Shown piece after piece: positions 21,244 through 32,922 of a DNA stretch of 64,000 nucleotides; within the stretch, counting starts at the first letter, position 1; each line of letters begins with the position of its first letter. This DNA is from Levilactobacillus acidifarinae DSM 19394 = JCM 15949 (GTDB lineage: Bacteria > Bacillota > Bacilli > Lactobacillales > Lactobacillaceae). The stretch spans positions 186,001-250,000 of the forward strand of contig NZ_AZDV01000026.1 in the NCBI RefSeq assembly GCF_001434835.1. Reading direction: 5' to 3'. The translations under genes were made by a program, and so were the position numbers. The notes beneath the pieces are model-generated. The model searched no databases. It was not told where the DNA came from and saw only the letters and a list, made by a program, of their open reading frames with translations.

Positions 21244-21300
21244 AAAAAACTAGACAGTTCGCTCAAAGATTAATTTTTAAGTGAACTGTCTAGTTTTTTA
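21244..21300 (+). terminator. dnaD terminator
   Basis: Arms AAAAAACTAGACAGTTC and GAACTGTCTAGTTTTTT flank an AT-rich loop and end in T residues. Confidence 0.88.
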
Positions 21301-21349
21301 ATCATTAGGTGCTTAGGGGCGAATTTCCCGGGGAAAGGGTAGTCGACGC

Positions 21350-21379
21350 TTGCTCTGGCCAATTGAAAAATGCTAGAAT
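21350..21379 (+). promoter_or_regulatory. candidate promoter of the crRNA-like RNA
   Basis: TTGCTC at 21350-21355 and TAGAAT at 21374-21379 are 18 bp apart, and TGC just before TAGAAT makes an extended -10. Transcription would begin near 21386, at the 5' edge of the first degenerate repeat. Confidence 0.55.
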
Positions 21380-21383
21380 TACA

Positions 21384-21466
21384 ATATTCCTCACGGTTGT
21401 GAGGGTGATTCGTTGTAATTATGCTATTTTATCTGATGGCATTTAGTAATCCCCACAAGTGTGGGG
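21384..21466 (+). ncRNA. crRNA-like RNA upstream of cas3 (candidate cas autorepressor)
   Basis: Two degenerate I-E repeats frame one guide. Repeat 1 (21384-21411) differs from the array consensus at a few sites, but its stem CCTCAC/GTGAGG shows a compensatory pair change and the handle GTGATTC is intact. The guide is 21413-21445 (33 nt). Repeat 2 (21446-21466) keeps CCCCAC-AAGT-GTGGGG, but the handle has decayed to TAAAAAA. Processing by Cas6e would give an 8-nt handle, a 33-nt guide and a 21-nt hairpin, the normal shape of an I-E crRNA. The guide matches 21483-21505 in the cas promoter. Structure is seen directly; expression and repression are inferred. Confidence 0.75.
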
Positions 21467-21479
21467 TAAAAAATAAAAG

Positions 21480-21512
21480 AACTTGTAATTATGATATTTA
21501 ATTTGTGATAAT
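21480..21512 (+). promoter_or_regulatory. cas operon promoter and target of the crRNA-like RNA
   Basis: TTGTAA (21483-21488) and GATAAT (21507-21512) are 18 bp apart, and TGT before GATAAT makes an extended -10. The guide pairs with 21483-21505, covering the -35 and the spacer. AAC at 21480-21482 stands in the PAM position and fits the AA-type PAM reported for related I-E systems. The remaining 160 bp to cas3 are AT-rich and otherwise show only a doubtful short ORF at 21607-21699. Confidence 0.6.
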
Positions 21513-21676
21513 CTTTTATTTTTTAATCTTATGTGCTAAAGTAAGGATATAAGTTCAAGGCATAATCAGAAATTATTGGTAATAGAAGGTTGTCTTTATT
21601 CGAAAAATGATACCGCTTACCAATTTAATTATAAAACGAAACGTTATACATATAAACACTTGGGAAGTGAAAAATA

Positions 21677-24547
21677 GTGAATTCGAAATTATCTGCTGAT
21701 GAAACTAGCCTGTGGGCCAAAAAAAATACGGAAAACGGGGAACAGCGCTGGTTACCCCTCGTGGTCCATTTGACGGATGCTGCGAATGTGATGAATTGGC
21801 TATATTACCATTGGCTAGACGAGGGGCAACGCCAGTTTTTAACGACTACGTTACCAGATGAAGAGATGCAAAAATTGGTTAAATTTCTCGGATTCTTTCA
21901 CGATTTCGGCAAGGCCACCCCAGCGTTTCAGACCAAGAAATCTTACGACGGTAATCGGTCTTTGGATGCCGAATTGTTGGAATTGTTAAGTCGGCACGGG
22001 TTTGCCGATTTAACGAACTTGGTGTTAGCTTCTCCCCAAAAATCGCCGCACGCACTAGCGGGAGAGGCCTTACTAGAAAGTGACCGTTTTAACGTCCCGG
22101 CGGCTATCGGGGCCATTATTGGTGGGCATCACGGTAAACCGGGACGGTGGGCGCCCAAACGCCAGCTAAAGGATTACCCAGCCAATTATTGTCAGATTGA
22201 TGGTATCCCGGACGATCCACAAGAGCGGGAACGCGAACAGTGGATTAAATTAAACTGGGAAGACGTTCAGCAACGATTATTTGCTTACGGACTAGAGCTT
22301 GCGGGCTACCAAGATGCCGCGGAAATCCCGACGGTGAATCAGCCCCAGGCCGTTATCTTAGAGGGCCTCTTGATTATGGCCGATTGGCTGGCATCGAGTG
22401 AATATTTAGATGCCGCGCAGACCATCCCGTTGTTTCCGTTGATTCGGTTGGATGAGTCTTATCAAGACGTTGATTTAACGGCCCGTTACCAACACGCTAT
22501 TCTAACGTGGAAACGCACGGATAAGTGGGAACCCCACCAAGTGGCGGTAAACGATAGTCAGGATCAACAGCAACATCGCGATCCTTATTTTGACCGCTGG
22601 GGCTTCACGGCCCGAGACGTACAATTGATCATGACCCAGGCCGTCCAAGCCACGACGGACCCTGGAATGGTGATCGTTGAAGCCGGCATGGGGGTGGGGA
22701 AGACCGAAATTGCGTTGGTCGCCGCCGAACAGTTAGCCGCTAAAACGGGTAGAAATGGGGTCTTTATGGGACTTCCGACTCAGGCGACGACTAACGCCAT
22801 GTTTAGCCGGGTGGTAGCCTGGGCCCGACAGTTGGCCAATGCCGAGGGGAAGAAGCTACCGATTAATTTGATGCACGGGAAAAAGCAGTTTAATCAAAAC
22901 TTTCAGAATCTTCCGGACGCGGCAAACGTGTATGACCACGACCAGCAGTTAGTAGGTAACCAATCTGAGACCAAGGCCCAAAGTGAAGCCGGGGCGGTGG
23001 TCGTGAACGGGTGGTTCTCGGGGAAAAAATCGATTTTAGCGGACTTTACGGTGGGAACGATCGACAATCTACTGTTGATGGGACTCAAGAAGAAGCATTT
23101 GTTCCTCCGTCACCTAGGGTTTAGCGGCAAGGTTGTCATTATCGACGAAGTGCACGCCTATGACACCTATATGAATAGTTATCTGTATAAAGCAATTAAT
23201 TGGCTAGGCGCCTATCATGTACCCATTATTGTTTTATCGGCGACGCTTCCCATTGCTAAACGTAACAAATTGATTTATGCCTATTTAAAAGGAAAATACG
23301 GACGTCAATACAAAAAAAGGTTACAAGCTCCAGCTGGTTGGGACCAAGCCCAGGCCTATCCCCTGTTAACCTTGGTAGATGGCCAGACGATTAAGCAAAC
23401 TACGGACTTTAATCAGCGTCAAGCGGCGAACACCACGGTCCAGATTCAACGACTCAATCTGGACGATGCCGCATTGATCAAAGCCGTCATGGTAAAGATT
23501 CAAGCCGGCGGAGTAGCGGGAGTGATTGTTAACACGGTCAAGCGGGCTCAGGCGTTAGCTAAGTTAGTTTTAGCTCATCCAGGTGACGTTCAACTAATGG
23601 TTCTACATTCGGCTTTTCTCGCTCCCGACCGGTCTAAACAAGAGCAAGCGCTGCAACGTGCGATTGGTAAGGGCGGGACCCGGCCGAAGAAGTTGATTGT
23701 GATTGGAACACAGGTGTTGGAACAATCCTTAGATATTGATTTCGACGTTTTGTACACCGATATCGCACCGATGGACTTGATCCTCCAACGGATCGGTCGG
23801 TTACACCGGCATCAAATTACCCGGCCAGTAGCGTTGCAGCACCCCCAAACCTTTATTCTAGGGGTACAGGGACCGGGCGATTACGGAGATGCCAATGAGG
23901 CCGTCTACGAAAAGTACTTACTCATGAAAACGGACCATTTCTTAGGTGAGACGGTGGCCTTACCCCGAGATATTTCTCGGCTGGTCCAAAAGGTGTACGA
24001 CCCAGCGACCGATGATGAAGTGGCTGGAATTGAATTGGCCAAGGAAGACTTTGAGGATGACCGTGATCGCGAAAAAGCCCGTTCCAAGGTCTTTCAAGTG
24101 GCTCCACCCAAGTTGAAGGCGGGGCAAACCATTCACGGATGGTTAGATTGGGATGACCAAAGCTTGGACAAGGATGAGCAAAATGCCAGTGCGGCGGTCC
24201 GGGATATTCAGGAGTCGATTGAGGTTGTCTTAGTGCAACATACGGCCCATGGTGACTATTTGCTCGATGGACGACCGTTAAATACCGTTAAGCCGCAAGA
24301 AATTGCCGAACAAGTGCTGCGGTTGCCAACGGCGGTGACGCCTAGAAATTCAGTGGTTGCGCAAGTAATCACGACATTGGAGCAACGAACGGGGGACCAA
24401 TTTGCCGATTGGCAATTAAGTCCTTGGTTACGCGGGGCGTTGGCCTTATCGCTAGATGACCAGGCCACGACAACTTTGGGGAGGTGGTCCTTAACGTACT
24501 CAACTAAGCTCGGACTGAGCTATGAAAAGGAGGATGAGCATGACTGA
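21677..24547 (+). CDS. cas3: Cas3 nuclease-helicase, type I-E
   Basis: This 956-residue Cas3 degrades DNA after Cascade marks a target. The N-terminal HD nuclease has His31 in VVHLTDAANV and His75-Asp76 in FFHDFGKATP. The SF2 helicase has Walker A EAGMGVGKTEIAL near residue 340, the DEVH box IIDEVHAYD, LSATLP and RIGRLHRHQ. The start is GTG with GGGAAG nine bases upstream. It opens the cas operon, overlaps cas8e by eight bases and is preceded by the crRNA-like RNA. No frameshift or lost catalytic residue is visible, so the effector appears intact. Confidence 0.95.
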   Translation: MNSKLSADETSLWAKKNTENGEQRWLPLVVHLTDAANVMNWLYYHWLDEGQRQFLTTTLPDEEMQKLVKFLGFFHDFGKATPAFQTKKSYDGNRSLDAELLELLSRHGFADLTNLVLASPQKSPHALAGEALLESDRFNVPAAIGAIIGGHHGKPGRWAPKRQLKDYPANYCQIDGIPDDPQEREREQWIKLNWEDVQQRLFAYGLELAGYQDAAEIPTVNQPQAVILEGLLIMADWLASSEYLDAAQTIPLFPLIRLDESYQDVDLTARYQHAILTWKRTDKWEPHQVAVNDSQDQQQHRDPYFDRWGFTARDVQLIMTQAVQATTDPGMVIVEAGMGVGKTEIALVAAEQLAAKTGRNGVFMGLPTQATTNAMFSRVVAWARQLANAEGKKLPINLMHGKKQFNQNFQNLPDAANVYDHDQQLVGNQSETKAQSEAGAVVVNGWFSGKKSILADFTVGTIDNLLLMGLKKKHLFLRHLGFSGKVVIIDEVHAYDTYMNSYLYKAINWLGAYHVPIIVLSATLPIAKRNKLIYAYLKGKYGRQYKKRLQAPAGWDQAQAYPLLTLVDGQTIKQTTDFNQRQAANTTVQIQRLNLDDAALIKAVMVKIQAGGVAGVIVNTVKRAQALAKLVLAHPGDVQLMVLHSAFLAPDRSKQEQALQRAIGKGGTRPKKLIVIGTQVLEQSLDIDFDVLYTDIAPMDLILQRIGRLHRHQITRPVALQHPQTFILGVQGPGDYGDANEAVYEKYLLMKTDHFLGETVALPRDISRLVQKVYDPATDDEVAGIELAKEDFEDDRDREKARSKVFQVAPPKLKAGQTIHGWLDWDDQSLDKDEQNASAAVRDIQESIEVVLVQHTAHGDYLLDGRPLNTVKPQEIAEQVLRLPTAVTPRNSVVAQVITTLEQRTGDQFADWQLSPWLRGALALSLDDQATTTLGRWSLTYSTKLGLSYEKEDEHD

Positions 24548-26258
24548 ACAACATTTTAACCTGACAACGGATCCGTGGATTAAAGTGATCCGGCGGGATA
24601 CCAGCCAGGAAACCAAAGTGTCATTGATTGAGCTTTTTGCCCACGCCCAGGATTACCGCCAATTAGCGGGCGAAATGAAATCCCAGGATTTGGCGATTCT
24701 ACGCCTGTTATTGGCAATTTTGACCACGGTGTATTCACGATTCGATGCCGAGGGTGAAGCCTATAGCTGGTTGCAATTTGACGACGATACGTTCCAAGCC
24801 ATTGACGTGAATCCGGATGATGATACCGAGGAATCCGAAATGGCAGGCGACCTATTAGCGACTTGGACACAGGTCTATCAGACGGGCCACTTTTCCGATA
24901 TCGTGACTCGCTATTTACAACGGTATGCTGATCGGTTTGACTTCTTTGGCGACCATCCCTTTTATCAGGTCACGACCCAGGATTACGATGCTTTGGTGCC
25001 CGCTAATAAGCAGGTGGCTAAGGGCAAAGGCCGGGTGGCCGTTAAACAGTTAAACCGACGGATTTCAGAGAGTGCCAATACCCCCGCCGTTTTTGCCCCG
25101 AAGACTGGGGCACTAAAGAATCAATTACCGATAGATGAACTGGTACGGTGGCTCATTACTTATCAGAACTTTACGGGGGTCACGGATAAAACCAAAGTGG
25201 TCACCACTGAAAAGTTTTCGAATCCCGCGGGTTGGCTGTACCGGTTAGGCCCCGTCTACGCGCAGGGGCAGACGGTCTTTGAAACCTTGATGCTGAATCT
25301 AGTTTTAGTGGGCGACAAGTTGGACGTTACGGCGGTTCAGCGGCCGGTGTGGGAATTTACAACGGTGCAAGAATATGTGGCTGACCGCAAAAAGCAAGCC
25401 AAACCGACTAATTTATCGGAACTCTACACGGCCTGGTCGAGAATTCTACATATTGAATGGGTTGATCAACAACCTAATATCTTTAGTGCGGGGATCCCCA
25501 TGTTTGCGCCGGAAGATACGTTAATCGAACCGATGACCACTTGGCGGTGGGATAAGAAGGAAAAGCAGTTCAGACCCGCCGTTAAGGGATTACGGTCACT
25601 GGGAATTTCGATGTGGCGGAACTTTGGTCAGTACGTTAAGGTCAATGACGAAAAGACCGAACGGCAACCAGGAGTGGTTGATTGGTTGCAGAAGTTGAAG
25701 CACCAAGAAGAGACGGTGATTCCCGATGAACAGCCGTTGACCCTAGCTTCGGTTGCTTTGATTAGCGACGGAAACGCGACGTCTCAATCACCGGCCGCAG
25801 AAGTGGCCGACGACTTGCAAATGCAGGCGGATGTGCTATTTGATCCGGAGATTGAAGACCATTGGCCGGTCAGAATTGAGGACGCGGTTGAGGTGACTCA
25901 GAATGTTGGAACGGATTTTTATCACTTTGCTGCGGATATTGCACAGATTCGCGACATTGACTCGCGTGACTTTGCGGGAAAATGGAGTGCGCAGTTCTAC
26001 GCGAACTTAGATGCACCGTTTAAGGACTGGCTGGCGCAACTAACGGGTCATGATAACCGGGAAGTTAAAATTAACGACTGGAAGTTGCAGTTGCAGGGCC
26101 TGTTACGTCAAGCTGTACAGGCCGTCCTGGAAACCAGTTCACCGCGCGACATTACGGGGATTAAGGACAGTAAGGACCGACCGTTCAATATTTTTACGGC
26201 GCAGAGTCGCTTAAGTTACAACGTGCACATCCATTTGAACCTAACTAAGAAGGCGTGA
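24540..26258 (+). CDS. casA: Cas8e (Cse1/CasA), Cascade large subunit
   Basis: This 572-residue large subunit of type I-E Cascade recognises the PAM and recruits Cas3. The opening HFNLTTDPWIKVI and the later MFAPEDTLIEPMTTWRWDKK region are typical of Cse1. AAGGAGG is seated six bases before the ATG at 24540; an ATG at 24534 is too close to it. It overlaps the end of cas3 by eight bases and almost touches cse2, which fits tight translational coupling. Family members vary greatly, so identity rests on both the N-terminus and the gene order. Confidence 0.92.
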   Translation: MTEQHFNLTTDPWIKVIRRDTSQETKVSLIELFAHAQDYRQLAGEMKSQDLAILRLLLAILTTVYSRFDAEGEAYSWLQFDDDTFQAIDVNPDDDTEESEMAGDLLATWTQVYQTGHFSDIVTRYLQRYADRFDFFGDHPFYQVTTQDYDALVPANKQVAKGKGRVAVKQLNRRISESANTPAVFAPKTGALKNQLPIDELVRWLITYQNFTGVTDKTKVVTTEKFSNPAGWLYRLGPVYAQGQTVFETLMLNLVLVGDKLDVTAVQRPVWEFTTVQEYVADRKKQAKPTNLSELYTAWSRILHIEWVDQQPNIFSAGIPMFAPEDTLIEPMTTWRWDKKEKQFRPAVKGLRSLGISMWRNFGQYVKVNDEKTERQPGVVDWLQKLKHQEETVIPDEQPLTLASVALISDGNATSQSPAAEVADDLQMQADVLFDPEIEDHWPVRIEDAVEVTQNVGTDFYHFAADIAQIRDIDSRDFAGKWSAQFYANLDAPFKDWLAQLTGHDNREVKINDWKLQLQGLLRQAVQAVLETSSPRDITGIKDSKDRPFNIFTAQSRLSYNVHIHLNLTKKA

Positions 26259-26263
26259 TGATT

Positions 26264-26881
26264 ATGGGAAATAAAGTAAAAAAAACTGTTGAGGAGACGA
26301 CGGATACCATCATCCGGGCGCTTTATCGTGAAGGTAATCCGAATAAAGCGGTATTGGCGGGTCTGAGAAGTACCACCACGTTGACCGGTCACCGGGCGCA
26401 AGCAGTCTGGCCCATCATGTTGGCTAACCTGGATGAGGGGATGTTGAGTAAGACCGGTCAACCCACCTATGCGGAAATGGCGATTTTTGCCGCGTTACGG
26501 TTTTACGCTATCCAACAACAAGGGGTCGAGGGTCACATGGTTTATGGCTCCGCTAAGGCTAAAGACGAAGATGACAAAGGTGTTGCATTGTTTAAGGCCC
26601 TAGCTCAATTACGAAGTCAAGAGGGCCAGCAAGTTGCCTTAGATCGCCGAGTTCGCGCTGTGCTGGAAACAACGAACGTGACGAGCATGATCAATTCGTT
26701 GTCCCATTTAATTAGTATTTTAAAGTCCCATAATCGGGGACAAAAAATTGATTATGCGGCTCTAGCTCAGGATCTGTACAACGCGCAGTGGGGGAACCGT
26801 CAAGCAAATCAGGTTCACCTGTACTGGGGGCAACAATACTATTGGAATGGTTCTACGACAAATGAAGGGAAGAAAAACTAA
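26264..26881 (+). CDS. casB: Cse2 (CasB), Cascade small subunit
   Basis: This all-helical protein of about 205 residues is the small Cascade subunit, present in two copies, that stabilises the R-loop. The stretches AQAVWPIMLANLDE, AIFAALRFYAIQQQG and RVRAVLETTNVTSMINSLSH agree with the Cse2 family. Three start codons are possible (26255, 26258, 26264); AAGAAGG lies ten bases before the last, which gives MGNKVKK. The stop overlaps the cas7e start as TAATG. Confidence 0.9.
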   Translation: MGNKVKKTVEETTDTIIRALYREGNPNKAVLAGLRSTTTLTGHRAQAVWPIMLANLDEGMLSKTGQPTYAEMAIFAALRFYAIQQQGVEGHMVYGSAKAKDEDDKGVALFKALAQLRSQEGQQVALDRRVRAVLETTNVTSMINSLSHLISILKSHNRGQKIDYAALAQDLYNAQWGNRQANQVHLYWGQQYYWNGSTTNEGKKN

Positions 26882-27954
26882 TGACTACTCAAAACTTATA
26901 CCTCGACATTAACGTGTTACAGACGGTCCCATCCTCTAACTTAAACCGAGATGATACGGGTGCCCCAAAGACGGCTCTGTACGGTGGCGTGACGCGAGCA
27001 CGGGTTTCTTCGCAAAGTTGGAAACGTGCCGTCCGCTCAACTTTTCGGGAAGATAATGTCGATGTCGGAACACGGACCAAGGAAGCTGCCCAATTATTGG
27101 TCAACGAACTGAAGCAACAAGACACCACGTTAGACGACGATGCGGCGTGGGCTAAGACTGACGCGGCCTTCAAGGCGGCGGGCGTTAAACTAAACAAAGA
27201 CCATGAAACGGGTGCGCTGCTACTGATTAGTCGCGGACAACTTGAAAAATTGGCCCAATATTTATTGGCTAACGATGATCTTGATAAAAAAGAAGTCAAG
27301 AAGGTCTTAAAGGGTGATCAATCCCTAGACTTAGCGTTATTTGGTCGCATGGTGGCCGATAATCCGGAACTAAACGTGGATGCAGCGGCGCAAGTGGCCC
27401 ATGCTATTTCCACGCACGAAGTTGTTCCAGAATATGACTACTTTACGGCTTTGGATGATTTACAAGGCGAGGACGAAACCGGTGCGGCCATGCTGGGGAG
27501 TATTGAATACAACTCATCAACCCTTTATCGCTACGCCAACGTGAACGTGAACGAATTAGTGCACAACTTAAATGCGGAAGATGCGGTTCACGGTGTTGCT
27601 GATTTCATCAAGGATTTTCTCTTGTCGATGCCAACGGGGAAGCAAAACACCTTTGCCAACAAGACCTTACCAAGCTATGTGCTGATCACGTTGCGTCCAG
27701 ATACGCCGGTTAACCTGGTCTCGGCCTTTGAAAAGCCAGTGGACTCACGTGATGGCTACGTTGCCGCTTCAATTGACCGGTTGGAAGCAGAGTATCAAAC
27801 GACCCAACAATTTGTCGACACGCCACGGTTGAACGTGGTCCTAGGAAAGGCCGATTCTCAAATTGGTGAAGTGGCGACGAACTTAGCTGATTTACTTAGC
27901 AAGGTTACCGGCAGCTTGACGGAGGCGATTCAGGATGAAGACACTAACGCTTAG
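26881..27954 (+). CDS. casC: Cas7e (Cse4/CasC), Cascade backbone subunit
   Basis: This 357-residue backbone protein forms the six-copy helical filament that holds the crRNA and kinks it at every sixth base. The N-terminal NLYLDINVLQTVPSSNLNRDD, GGVTRARVSSQSWKRA and the C-terminal half with SMPTGKQNTFANKTLPSYV are diagnostic of Cas7e. It starts in the TAATG overlap with cse2 and overlaps cas5e by 20 bases. Confidence 0.95.
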   Translation: MTTQNLYLDINVLQTVPSSNLNRDDTGAPKTALYGGVTRARVSSQSWKRAVRSTFREDNVDVGTRTKEAAQLLVNELKQQDTTLDDDAAWAKTDAAFKAAGVKLNKDHETGALLLISRGQLEKLAQYLLANDDLDKKEVKKVLKGDQSLDLALFGRMVADNPELNVDAAAQVAHAISTHEVVPEYDYFTALDDLQGEDETGAAMLGSIEYNSSTLYRYANVNVNELVHNLNAEDAVHGVADFIKDFLLSMPTGKQNTFANKTLPSYVLITLRPDTPVNLVSAFEKPVDSRDGYVAASIDRLEAEYQTTQQFVDTPRLNVVLGKADSQIGEVATNLADLLSKVTGSLTEAIQDEDTNA

Positions 27955-28660
27955 ACTCACGGCACCTTTGCAGTCGTATGGTAACCAAGCGACCTTTGAA
28001 CGCCGAACTTCTGGCGATTTTCCGTCCAAGAGCGCCATTATCGGGATGATGGCGGCAGCACTGGGTTACCGCCGCGACGATGACCGTATTCTGGCACTTA
28101 ATGACCTGGTCTTTGCGGTCAGAGTGGACCAAGGAGGCAAGCCCCTGACTGAGTTTCAAACGGTTGAGTGGAAGCAGGGCACCCGTAAGTTGACGCACCG
28201 AGACTATCTCCAGGATGCCGTTTTTATGGTGGCCGTGGGGAGCGAGGATGAAACCACGATAACGCGGATTCATGAGGCACTGCAACGCCCCAAGTTCCAG
28301 TTATTTCTTGGTCGCCGGGCCAGTGTTCCCGCGGGGGTGCTACAAATTCGCGAATTTGCCGATCAGACCCCGATTACGATCTTAAAAAGGCTGGCTTGGC
28401 AGGCGTCGGGCTGGTACCAAAAGCGGTATACCAAGTGGCACCCTCAGGCAGCGACCGTGACGTTAGATATGTACGCGGATGCGGTGTTATTACCCAATAA
28501 GCATCGGGTCATGGTCAGAGACCGAGTTGAGTCATTTGATCAACGTAATCGCCGCTATGGATTTCGACCGTTGGCGACGGAGCGGGTAACGTTGCCCAAT
28601 TCACTGGTTGAAAAGGTTGACCAGGTTGCCACGGAACATGACCCGTTTAGCGTACTTTAG
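27935..28660 (+). CDS. casD: Cas5e (CasD), Cascade subunit binding the crRNA 5' handle
   Basis: This 241-residue Cas5e caps the Cascade filament at the crRNA 5' handle. MKTLTLRLTAPLQSYGNQA and TSGDFPSKSAIIGMMAAALG are strong family motifs, and the C-terminal half contains the usual KHRVMVRDRVESFD. The gene starts inside the end of cas7e, a common arrangement. It would read the same GTGATTC handle in array crRNAs and in the crRNA-like RNA upstream of cas3. Confidence 0.94.
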   Translation: MKTLTLRLTAPLQSYGNQATFERRTSGDFPSKSAIIGMMAAALGYRRDDDRILALNDLVFAVRVDQGGKPLTEFQTVEWKQGTRKLTHRDYLQDAVFMVAVGSEDETTITRIHEALQRPKFQLFLGRRASVPAGVLQIREFADQTPITILKRLAWQASGWYQKRYTKWHPQAATVTLDMYADAVLLPNKHRVMVRDRVESFDQRNRRYGFRPLATERVTLPNSLVEKVDQVATEHDPFSVL

Positions 28661-28675
28661 AAGGGAGTTAGCTGT

Positions 28676-29347
28676 ATGTATCTATCACGAGTTGAAGTTG
28701 ATAGTCGTAATCGTCAAAAAATAAAAGACCTAACTCACTTAGGCGCTTACCATAATTGGGTTGAACAGAGTTTTCCAAAAGAGATTGCCCAAAAGGAACG
28801 TCACCGCCACCTTTGGCGACTGGATAATTTGGGAGGCAAACAATACTTACTAGTCCTCAGTGAAGAGAAGCCGGATATTCAAAAATTAGTGACCTACGGA
28901 GTTACTGGCACGGCTATGATCAAAACCTATGATTCATTCTTAGATAAGATTCAGACGGGCCAGATTATGCAATTTCGATTGACGGCTAATCCTTCGCGTA
29001 AGATTAGTCGTCCGGGTCAAAAACAGGGACGGGTTGTGCCCCACATTACGGTAGACCAGCAACGAAACTGGCTGATTGAGCGGGCTGCGGCAAGTGGGTT
29101 TGAGTTAGTTCAACAAGAAATCGTTGATGAGCCAGAGGCTCCCGTTAGCCGGGCGTTTGATATCGTCGCGCGGGATTGGCCGGTATTACACCATAAAAAG
29201 GAACATAGCGTGCGTCTTAGTCGGGTAACTTTTGAAGGCCTTTTACGGGTAACGGACGTTGAGGCGTTTAAGACCACGTTAACGCAAGGCCTCGGCCGTG
29301 AAAAAGCATTTGGCATGGGTCTGATGACGGTAATTCCGGAAAGGTAG
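28676..29347 (+). CDS. casE: Cas6e (CasE), pre-crRNA endoribonuclease
   Basis: This 223-residue Cas6e cuts pre-crRNA at the base of each repeat hairpin and stays bound to the 3' stem. His26 (in HLGAYHNWVEQ) sits where the catalytic histidine lies in Thermus Cas6e, and the C-terminal glycine-rich loop GLGREKAFGMGLMTV is complete. GAAGGGAG precedes the ATG. The repeat stem-loop CCCCAC-ACGT-GTGGGG and the two degenerate stems upstream of cas3 are its expected substrates. Confidence 0.94.
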   Translation: MYLSRVEVDSRNRQKIKDLTHLGAYHNWVEQSFPKEIAQKERHRHLWRLDNLGGKQYLLVLSEEKPDIQKLVTYGVTGTAMIKTYDSFLDKIQTGQIMQFRLTANPSRKISRPGQKQGRVVPHITVDQQRNWLIERAAASGFELVQQEIVDEPEAPVSRAFDIVARDWPVLHHKKEHSVRLSRVTFEGLLRVTDVEAFKTTLTQGLGREKAFGMGLMTVIPER

Positions 29348-31215
<1,868 letters not shown>

Positions 31216-31244: not shown

Positions 31245-32922
31245 GTATTCCCCACACGTGTGGGGGTGATTCCCAGTCGACGGGCTGGCGGATCTAAATC
31301 CTTCAGTATTCCCCACACGTGTGGGGGTGATTCTTAGGTGACACGGCTATTGATACGGACGTTGAAGTATTCCCCACACGTGTGGGGGTGATTCCCATGA
31401 AATATCTAATCAAGCCGCCCCAAGGTAGTATTCCCCACACGTGTGGGGGTGATTCTCACCCATCCGTCTAGCTTCGGTCTTGCCGTCTGTATTCCCCACA
31501 CGTGTGGGGGTGATTCTGCACGTCGGATTATACGGACCGAATCGGCCCGGTATTCCCCACACGTGTGGGGGTGATTCTTGTACGTGAAGTACGGGATTCC
31601 GTTTGGCGAGTAGTATTCCCCACACGTGTGGGGGTGATTCCATCACCATCAATCTTAAGGGGGTCTGATTATGGTATTCCCCACACGTGTGGGGGTGATT
31701 CCCAGCCGCACTCTTTGAAAGACGACCATATAAAGTATTCCCCACACGTGTGGGGGTGATTCCAGAAACGCCTAGTGTTTTTGCAACTTGCGTTAGTATT
31801 CCCCACACGTGTGGGGGTGATTCCATTATTTAGTACCTCCGTTCATAGATGCGATTGTATTCCCCACACGTGTGGGGGTGATTCCAAAGTTCTGCTCATT
31901 ATCGCTTAAACGGTTAAGTATTCCCCACACGTGTGGGGGTGATTCTCAGGTTAGCCTTCCGGCCGCCAAGCCATTGGCGTATTCCCCACACGTGTGGGGG
32001 TGATTCTAACACTGACTATGCCATGAAGATAGCTTGGTTGTATTCCCCACACGTGTGGGGGTGATTCTGATTTGCCACGTTATCATATTAAAATTGATGG
32101 GTATTCCCCACACGTGTGGGGGTGATTCCGACGAAAGCGACGGGCGCCCCCGCCGCTTTTTGTATTCCCCACACGTGTGGGGGTGATTCTACTTCAACGA
32201 AATCAATTTTTAGTGTTGATGTGTATTCCCCACACGTGTGGGGGTGATTCCATTAAACCCATGAAATGCAAGAAAACAAGCCGGTATTCCCCACACGTGT
32301 GGGGGTGATTCACTTATCGCCCAACACTTGGCTGGGGGCGATTAGTATTCCCCACACGTGTGGGGGTGATTCTTAGATTAGTCTATAAAATCCAGTTGAC
32401 TCTTAGTATTCCCCACACGTGTGGGGGTGATTCCCACCTTCGGGCTGATCGTAAGACCGACTCGATGTATTCCCCACACGTGTGGGGGTGATTCCTCACG
32501 GTCGGCGGAGTCCATCCGAATTAAAATGTATTCCCCACACGTGTGGGGGTGATTCCGATACCGGTCATCAGGTCCATCATCACCGCCCGTATTCCCCACA
32601 CGTGTGGGGGTGATTCTAAAGGGTTAGGCATTAACTGTCTGGCCCTTTTGTATTCCCCACACGTGTGGGGGTGATTCTAAACGTTGACAAGCCTTTAAAT
32701 AGTATGGTATGTATTCCCCACACGTGTGGGGGTGATTCCGTGGGCGCCCTCAAGTCCGTAGGTGGTCGTTCGTATTCCCCACACGTGTGGGGGTGATTCC
32801 GAAATGTCGCTGGCCAACGAGACGGCTTTTAAGTATTCCCCACATGTGTGGGGGTGATTCCTACGCCCAATCCGAGATGGCAACTAACTATTTGTATTTC
32901 CCACATGCGTGTGGGAGTGAAC
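31245..32922 (+). CRISPR. type I-E CRISPR array, 28 repeats and 27 spacers
   Basis: The repeat is GTATTC, then the palindrome CCCCACACGTGTGGGG, then GTGATTC (28 nt), with a 61-bp period. Repeats start at 31245, 31306, 31367, 31428, 31489, 31550, 31613 and then every 61 bp to 32894. All spacers are 33 nt except spacer 6, which is 35. The first base of the spacer is C or T in 26 of 27 cases, so the true repeat is probably 29 nt with a PAM-derived last base. Repeat 27 has one change; repeat 28 is degenerate with a paired stem change, so the leader lies at the cas2 end. Small reading frames over this region are repeat artefacts. Confidence 0.98.

Follow-up and report, generated by a model that had tools for sequence, protein, structure and literature searches.

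A candidate CreR-type RNA ahead of cas3 in Levilactobacillus acidifarinae and the recurrence of its guide-target arrangement in the Lactobacillaceae

The question raised by this locus is whether a small unit of two degenerate CRISPR repeats and one spacer encodes a crRNA-like RNA that acts on the cas genes next to it. The unit precedes a complete set of type I-E genes and lies 9.8 kb before the CRISPR array. The window referred to below is the whole stretch of DNA analyzed, 64,000 nucleotides of the genome of L. acidifarinae DSM 19394. Judged from sequence comparison, the unit very likely specifies a crRNA-like RNA of the CreR type that directs Cascade to repress the cas3-cas operon.

Anatomy of the mini-array and of its target

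The features of the locus are listed below, with coordinates of the window.

21350..21379, + strand: candidate promoter of the mini-array (TTGCTC, 18 nt, extended -10 TGCTAGAAT at 21371-21379)
21384..21411, + strand: degenerate repeat 1, with a Cas6e-type hairpin and an intact handle GTGATTC (21405-21411)
21405..21466, + strand: predicted mature crRNA-like RNA of approximately 62 nt, starting GUGAUUCG, as expected from type I-E processing rules (8-nt handle, 33-nt guide and 21-nt hairpin)
21413..21445, + strand: 33-nt guide between the two degenerate repeats
21446..21466, + strand: degenerate repeat 2, hairpin retained, handle gone (6 mismatches)
21480..21482, + strand: AAC in the PAM position (AAY agrees with the base after the repeat in arrays)
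21483..21505, + strand: target of guide positions 1-23 (20/23 identical)
21483..21512, + strand: predicted promoter of the cas3 operon (TTGTAA, 18 nt, GATAAT with a TG extension; consensus scan)
21677..24547, + strand: cas3 (TIGR01587 and TIGR01596 above cut-off)
24522..29347, + strand: cse1, cse2, cas7, cas5 and cas6e, the complete Cascade gene set (NCBIfam type I-E models above cut-off)
29351..31215, + strand: cas1e and a cas2e-DnaQ fusion (profile matches)
31245..32922, + strand: CRISPR array with the repeat GTATTCCCCACACGTGTGGGGGTGATTC

Repeats 1 and 2 are the best two repeat-like sites on the + strand of the window outside the array, with 22/28 and 20/28 positions identical to the array repeat; the next site has 19/28. 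The repeat register comprises 28 nt and one further base (21412), which puts the first base of the guide at 21413; the repeat spacing is 62. As read from the sequence, a T-A pair replaces a C-G pair in the stem of repeat 1 with pairing preserved. The predicted hairpin energies are -9.6 kcal/mol for repeat 1 and -10.8 kcal/mol for repeat 2. A first-pass annotation of this DNA had described two degenerate I-E repeats framing a guide about 10 kb from the array, the first with a covarying stem and an intact GTGATTC handle and the second with its hairpin but not its handle; all of this was recovered by the repeat scan and the folds. As in CreR loci, two repeat-like sequences thus surround one spacer near a cas operon, and the cognate Cas6 and effector genes are present and open. 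The candidate promoter of the mini-array was defined by a -10-like box with a score of 6 and a -35 read by eye. Within the window, no match to Rfam was obtained at the gathering thresholds. In the adjacent cas genes, Cas2e is joined to a DnaQ-like exonuclease domain (30301-31215), and at 31544-31607 the array departs once from its repeat-to-repeat spacing of 61, with a value of 63.

Guide and target were realigned. Positions 1-11 match 21483-21505 perfectly, mismatches occur at 12, 18 and 21, and AAC lies ahead, exactly as the first-pass annotation had it; over 32 positions, 23 are identical. A direct-repeat finder that is blind to the repeat register begins the match exactly at 21413. On either strand of the 64-kb window, the runner-up 23-mer for the guide reaches 16/23, and a genome-wide search for the PAM and seed pattern with up to 2 mismatches returned the target, the guide itself and one further site (2 mismatches). 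The target coincides with the -35 TTGTAA and the spacer of an extended -10 promoter-like site ahead of cas3. This placement, also claimed before, was found again by a consensus promoter scan that returned 4 sites vs 2.1 +/- 1.7 in shuffles, a result that is weak taken alone. The guide therefore combines a seed match with partial complementarity to a predicted cas promoter behind a PAM, which is the pattern of CreR. Antisense pairing with the cas3 mRNA was rejected as an explanation, because the guide reads in the sense of the cas3-coding strand.

Survey of cas3 loci and coevolution of guide and target

The survey covered 82 cas3 loci in 80 genomes of Lactobacillaceae, with each species represented by a single genome. 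The window's genus contributed 22 loci, from 21 of the 35 genomes; the remaining 60 were taken from 59 further genomes out of 397 of the family. Family loci were strong cas3 matches (two matched in pieces); weak partial matches were left out, and L023, a second copy of L172, was excluded from the counts. Upstream sequence was shorter than 600 nt in 4 of the 82 loci. In the strict screen, up to 4 kb of upstream sequence, where present, was searched for repeat-like elements that had both a hairpin and a near-intact handle. The 32 bases following each such element were aligned to the locus's own downstream region, with AA required before the target and guide positions 6, 12, 18, 24 and 30 ignored. 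The counts were taken from screens with repeats masked; unmasked ones were swamped by array repeats matching each other.

Fifteen species scored 11-17 on their own region in the strict screen of the 82 loci, against a maximum of 10 in 5,899 guide-to-foreign-locus pairings. With tighter repeat criteria and 1.5 kb of upstream sequence, candidates were present in 57 of 83 loci and 13 species scored at least 11; own scores were empty between 7 and 11, and the maximum of 3,296 foreign pairings was 9. Looser screens added five loci (L151, L167, L178, L179 and L186), which come from other repeat rules and are less certain, for a total of 20 of 82 loci in seven genera (4 in the window's genus, 4 in g14, 4 in g20, 3 in g38, 2 in g37, 2 in g10 and 1 in g33). 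One looser screen gave high foreign scores, which were attributed to unmasked repeats. Nothing above 9 was returned by a minus-strand screen of the loci, which places the matches on the cas3-coding strand. Given this family comparison, chance is an untenable explanation for the guide-target match. In 62 of the 82 loci, 18 of them among the 22 of the window's genus, no guide-target pair was detectable, and the arrangement is not general in the family.

Outside the family, 74 of 79 loci (L024-L102) were put through two crude screens, and no convincing case was found among the 74. The first screen scanned 59 loci with their own repeats and kept only the best match per locus, which was sometimes a repeat or a duplicated spacer, behind which weaker true matches could hide. 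The second scanned all 74 loci, 52 of them with their own in-register repeats. One type I-E locus of Nocardiopsis (L035, -1438 and -81 from cas3) has a degenerate-handle repeat whose spacer scores 13 points against a site 81 nt before cas3, behind ATG and with mismatches at 6 and 12; this match is not significant alone and is a weak lead. This match was not recovered in the second screen, in which foreign pairings matched in 28 of 6,308 cases.

Over 14 guide positions (1-16 without 6 and 12), the 20 own pairs are identical at 11-14. The 380 swapped pairs average 5.5 of 14 with a maximum of 12, and the three swapped values of 11-12 all fall inside one genus. A sister species (G034), with a cas3 95% identical to that of the window, has an orthologous mini-array, 1.8 kb upstream of cas3, and an orthologous target. 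When the two species are compared at the 20 non-flipped positions of 1-24, the own pairs agree at 19 and 16 and the swapped pairs at 10 and 13. Both guide and target were altered between the two, so that the match has been kept via changes on both sides, which was the criterion adopted here. The first-pass annotation had proposed alignment across relatives as a check for guide-target covariation, and such covariation is found in 15 (strict screen) to 20 of the 82 family loci. Own matches far above foreign ones and the coordinated change in the sister species support, at the level of sequence, the CreR-like reading.

These data bear on the possibility that the mini-array is a functionless trailer-end relic left by an older CRISPR array in the upstream region. 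Repeats often decay in this location: in many relatives of the genus an array lies just upstream of cas3 and its cas3-proximal repeats are degenerating. A dead spacer, however, would not have preserved a match, behind AAY, to the region ahead of cas3 in its own locus in 15-20 species, nor would it change together with its target between sister species, and we consider a relic very improbable. An older upstream array may nevertheless be the evolutionary origin of the mini-array. Separate repeat pairs were seen upstream of cas3 in L111 (-242), L113 (-384), L119 (-376) and L123 (-118). The spacers of these four pairs have no match near cas3 in the screens, and the pairs may aim elsewhere or be relics. 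The upstream array of L109 (-2646 to -2402; -538 and -477) contains duplicated spacers.

The position of the target was compared across the 20 loci. In 14 of them it lies 30-206 nt ahead of cas3, and in L122, L162 and L179 it lies 287-458 nt ahead. A PRiA4_ORF3-family gene (PF07929; L172:2246-2821) separates target and cas3 in L172 and may be co-regulated; in L188 they are separated by an OrfB-like frame. The sister species G034 has approximately 1.7 kb of unrelated sequence between target and cas3, carrying an ISL3-type transposase gene (PF01610; L104:16171-17445), and its cas3 stays open. By consensus matching, no good -10 was found after the target in several loci (e.g., L167, L188 and L190).

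CreT toxins are tiny, and in the manner of CreTA or CrePA the crRNA-like RNA could silence something else, with the promoter driving a tiny toxin and not cas3. A 33-aa TTG-started frame at 21576-21677 between promoter and cas3 would be compatible with this, as would L172, in which another gene precedes cas3. Between target and cas3 of the window, however, the ORF list has no frame of at least 70 aa (tiny toxins could escape such lists), and the short distance to cas3 of the 14 targets mentioned above counts against a toxin. The chance of this arrangement is put as slight.

Read by eye, seven pairless relatives in the genus (L107, L109, L112, L115, L116, L118 and L120) have another type of cas3 promoter in the last 400 nt, with a TTGAC-like -35, a TGTATCTT-like -10 and an ATTATTT-rich stretch upstream. 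Several of the seven also have a TGAATACGNTTACA-like box there, noted by eye, which we take to resemble a catabolite-control (cre) site.

Cascade signature and parts of the predicted RNA

In Cascade, every sixth base is flipped out of pairing. Positions 6 and 12 match in 7 and 5 of the 20 pairs, respectively. As the screen had ignored both positions, a control with other phases was needed: skipping phase 6 gave 14 loci with scores of at least 11, other phases gave 3-4, and no skipping gave 8. When pairs were selected without any positional preference (13/17 identical; 14 matches in 13 loci), mismatches were concentrated at positions 6 (9), 12 (9) and 17 (7), with 0-2 elsewhere. These alignments show no constraint on positions 6 and 12, which agrees with what Cascade would predict. 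The first-pass annotation had placed both mismatched positions 12 and 18 of the window's guide among the flipped-out ones. In the relatives, mismatches do cluster at 12; position 18 matches in 14 of the 20 and does not behave as free, which counts against a perfect picture.

The base that follows the repeat in type I-E arrays stems from the PAM. In 1,238 of 1,261 array units it is a pyrimidine (C or T), and the third PAM base of the targets is C (12) or T (8) in 20/20, although the search required AA only. At the corresponding site of the mini-arrays themselves, after repeat 1, C or T stands in only 11 of 20. For the type I-E Cascade of Ligilactobacillus salivarius, an excerpt of the published study reports AAT as a PAM verified cell-free and AAY at self-targets (PMC11288051). 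To the left of the guide, 0/20 pairs match at -3 and -2; this is uninformative, as the search demanded AA at these two positions and the handle differs from AA.

The same alignments leave hardly any room for the two 23-bp copies as direct-repeat operators of a DNA-binding protein with coincidental CRISPR-like repeats: two similar AT-rich sites close to a promoter, at a distance of 70 bp, are a common operator layout, the shared left edge is partly imposed by a screen that searched the relatives from guide position 1 only, and -5 and -4 also match (15/20 and 10/20, attributed to AT-rich sequence), but the register-blind finder starts the window's match at the first guide base, the copies differ so much among genera (mean of 5.5/14 in swapped pairs) that no single protein could read all of them, and the mismatches cluster at 6 and 12.

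For an RNA guiding Cascade, Cas6e cuts below both hairpins, so that repeat 1 supplies the 5' handle and repeat 2 the 3' hairpin. The handle of repeat 1 is perfect in 17 of the 20 loci (a near-intact handle was a selection criterion for 15), and the hairpin of repeat 2, which was chosen partly by its stem, has 5-6 of 6 pairs in 20/20. The handle of repeat 2 has at least 3 mismatches in 16/20. This pattern of conservation, a handle from repeat 1 and a hairpin from repeat 2, is what a single crRNA would need. A -10 box scoring at least 6 lies within 32 nt of repeat 1 in 10/20 loci, compared to 6.7% of AT-matched background windows; this enrichment, TGCTAGAAT in the window included, suggests that the mini-array probably has a promoter of its own.

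The repeat spacing of the mini-arrays is 60-62 in 12 of the 20 and 49-51 in the other 8, with nothing between. The short-spacing mini-arrays (L151, L161, L181, L193, L167, L192, L173 and L178) belong to four genera. The difference of approximately 12 nt corresponds to two six-base Cascade modules. According to part of the published account (PMC10989794), a spacer shortened to 24 bases no longer supported interference in a type I-B archaeon but still gave repression. The Lactobacillaceae could thus have a dedicated class of regulatory guides, shorter by about two Cascade subunits, with a reduced Cascade that binds and cannot license Cas3; we hold this to be a tentative proposal, somewhat short of probable. 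A Cascade assembled on a short RNA would lack two of the Cas7 units and would bind without licensing Cas3, and the long class, to which the window belongs, would reach binding without cutting via mismatches beyond approximately position 23. From the type I-B finding and the 12-nt difference, short guides and distal mismatches would be two ways to bind a target that is left uncut.

Relation to known systems and proposed mechanism

CreR of type I-B, I-E and V-A systems is reportedly described in a primary paper by Liu et al. in Cell Host Microbe in 2023. Shmakov et al. are said to have surveyed crRNA-like mini-arrays in NAR in 2023, aimed at cas8 in particular. The unit described here shares with those mini-arrays the paired standalone repeats and a spacer partly matching a cas promoter; unlike them, which are reportedly cas8-directed, it has its target ahead of cas3. 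The relevant portions of two reviews present CreR as cas-regulating RNAs of type I-B, I-E and V-A systems (PMC13131331, PMC12737573), and one of them mentions CreR autorepression as already reported for type I-E (PMC13131331). The mini-array therefore adds to a known kind of RNA and is not a new kind: its sequence features make it very probably a CreR-type RNA of the kind already known from other bacteria. Like CreR, it would be a crRNA-like RNA partly matching a cas promoter, with Cascade-guided autorepression to be expected. Unlike CreR as described in those portions, it is hosted by a species of the Lactobacillaceae, and its relatives include a recurrent short-guide class. This class, with guides approximately 12 nt shorter, looks like the freshest part of the results. 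No CreR in lactobacilli appeared in titles or abstract openings among the literature matches listed, which says little.

Two further groups of RNAs are similar in part. CreA of CreTA and CrePA, as summarized in a section of a review (PMC12737573), is likewise a crRNA-like RNA with partial pairing and Cascade as the repressor; it silences a toxin gene, whereas the promoter in the window leads into cas3. Racr RNA anti-CRISPRs, as outlined in part of their description (PMC10651486), are also stray CRISPR-repeat RNAs engaging Cas proteins. They are solitary repeats on phages or mobile elements, whereas the present unit has a guide and a cis target. It lies on a 746-kb contig, and the region 21300-21680 has no match in 50,697 phage and 72,556 plasmid records.

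Transcription, processing, loading, repression and feedback, which we infer, would take the following course. The one-spacer mini-array upstream of cas3 would be transcribed from its own promoter, Cas6e would cut at the hairpins of both degenerate repeats, and the type I-E Cascade encoded downstream would take up the RNA. Its guide would bring Cascade to the AAC-flanked site on the promoter of the cas3 operon. With pairing perfect on the PAM side and failing beyond approximately position 23, Cascade would stay and block RNA polymerase, and Cas3 would not be called. When Cascade is scarce or occupied by crRNAs of the array, the operon would be released, which would constitute a negative feedback.

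If this is true, a good share of the lactobacilli that carry type I-E systems dampen their CRISPR immunity by RNA-guided feedback, which would be relevant to the use of native systems of lactobacilli for editing or phage resistance. The 15-20 coevolved pairs would also be a natural experiment on what silencing by Cascade needs, namely the PAM and positions 1-5, 7-11 and 13, but neither 6 nor 12. The short-guide class may be the natural counterpart of engineered shortened spacers that, in the part of the report concerned (PMC10989794), repress a target left uncut.
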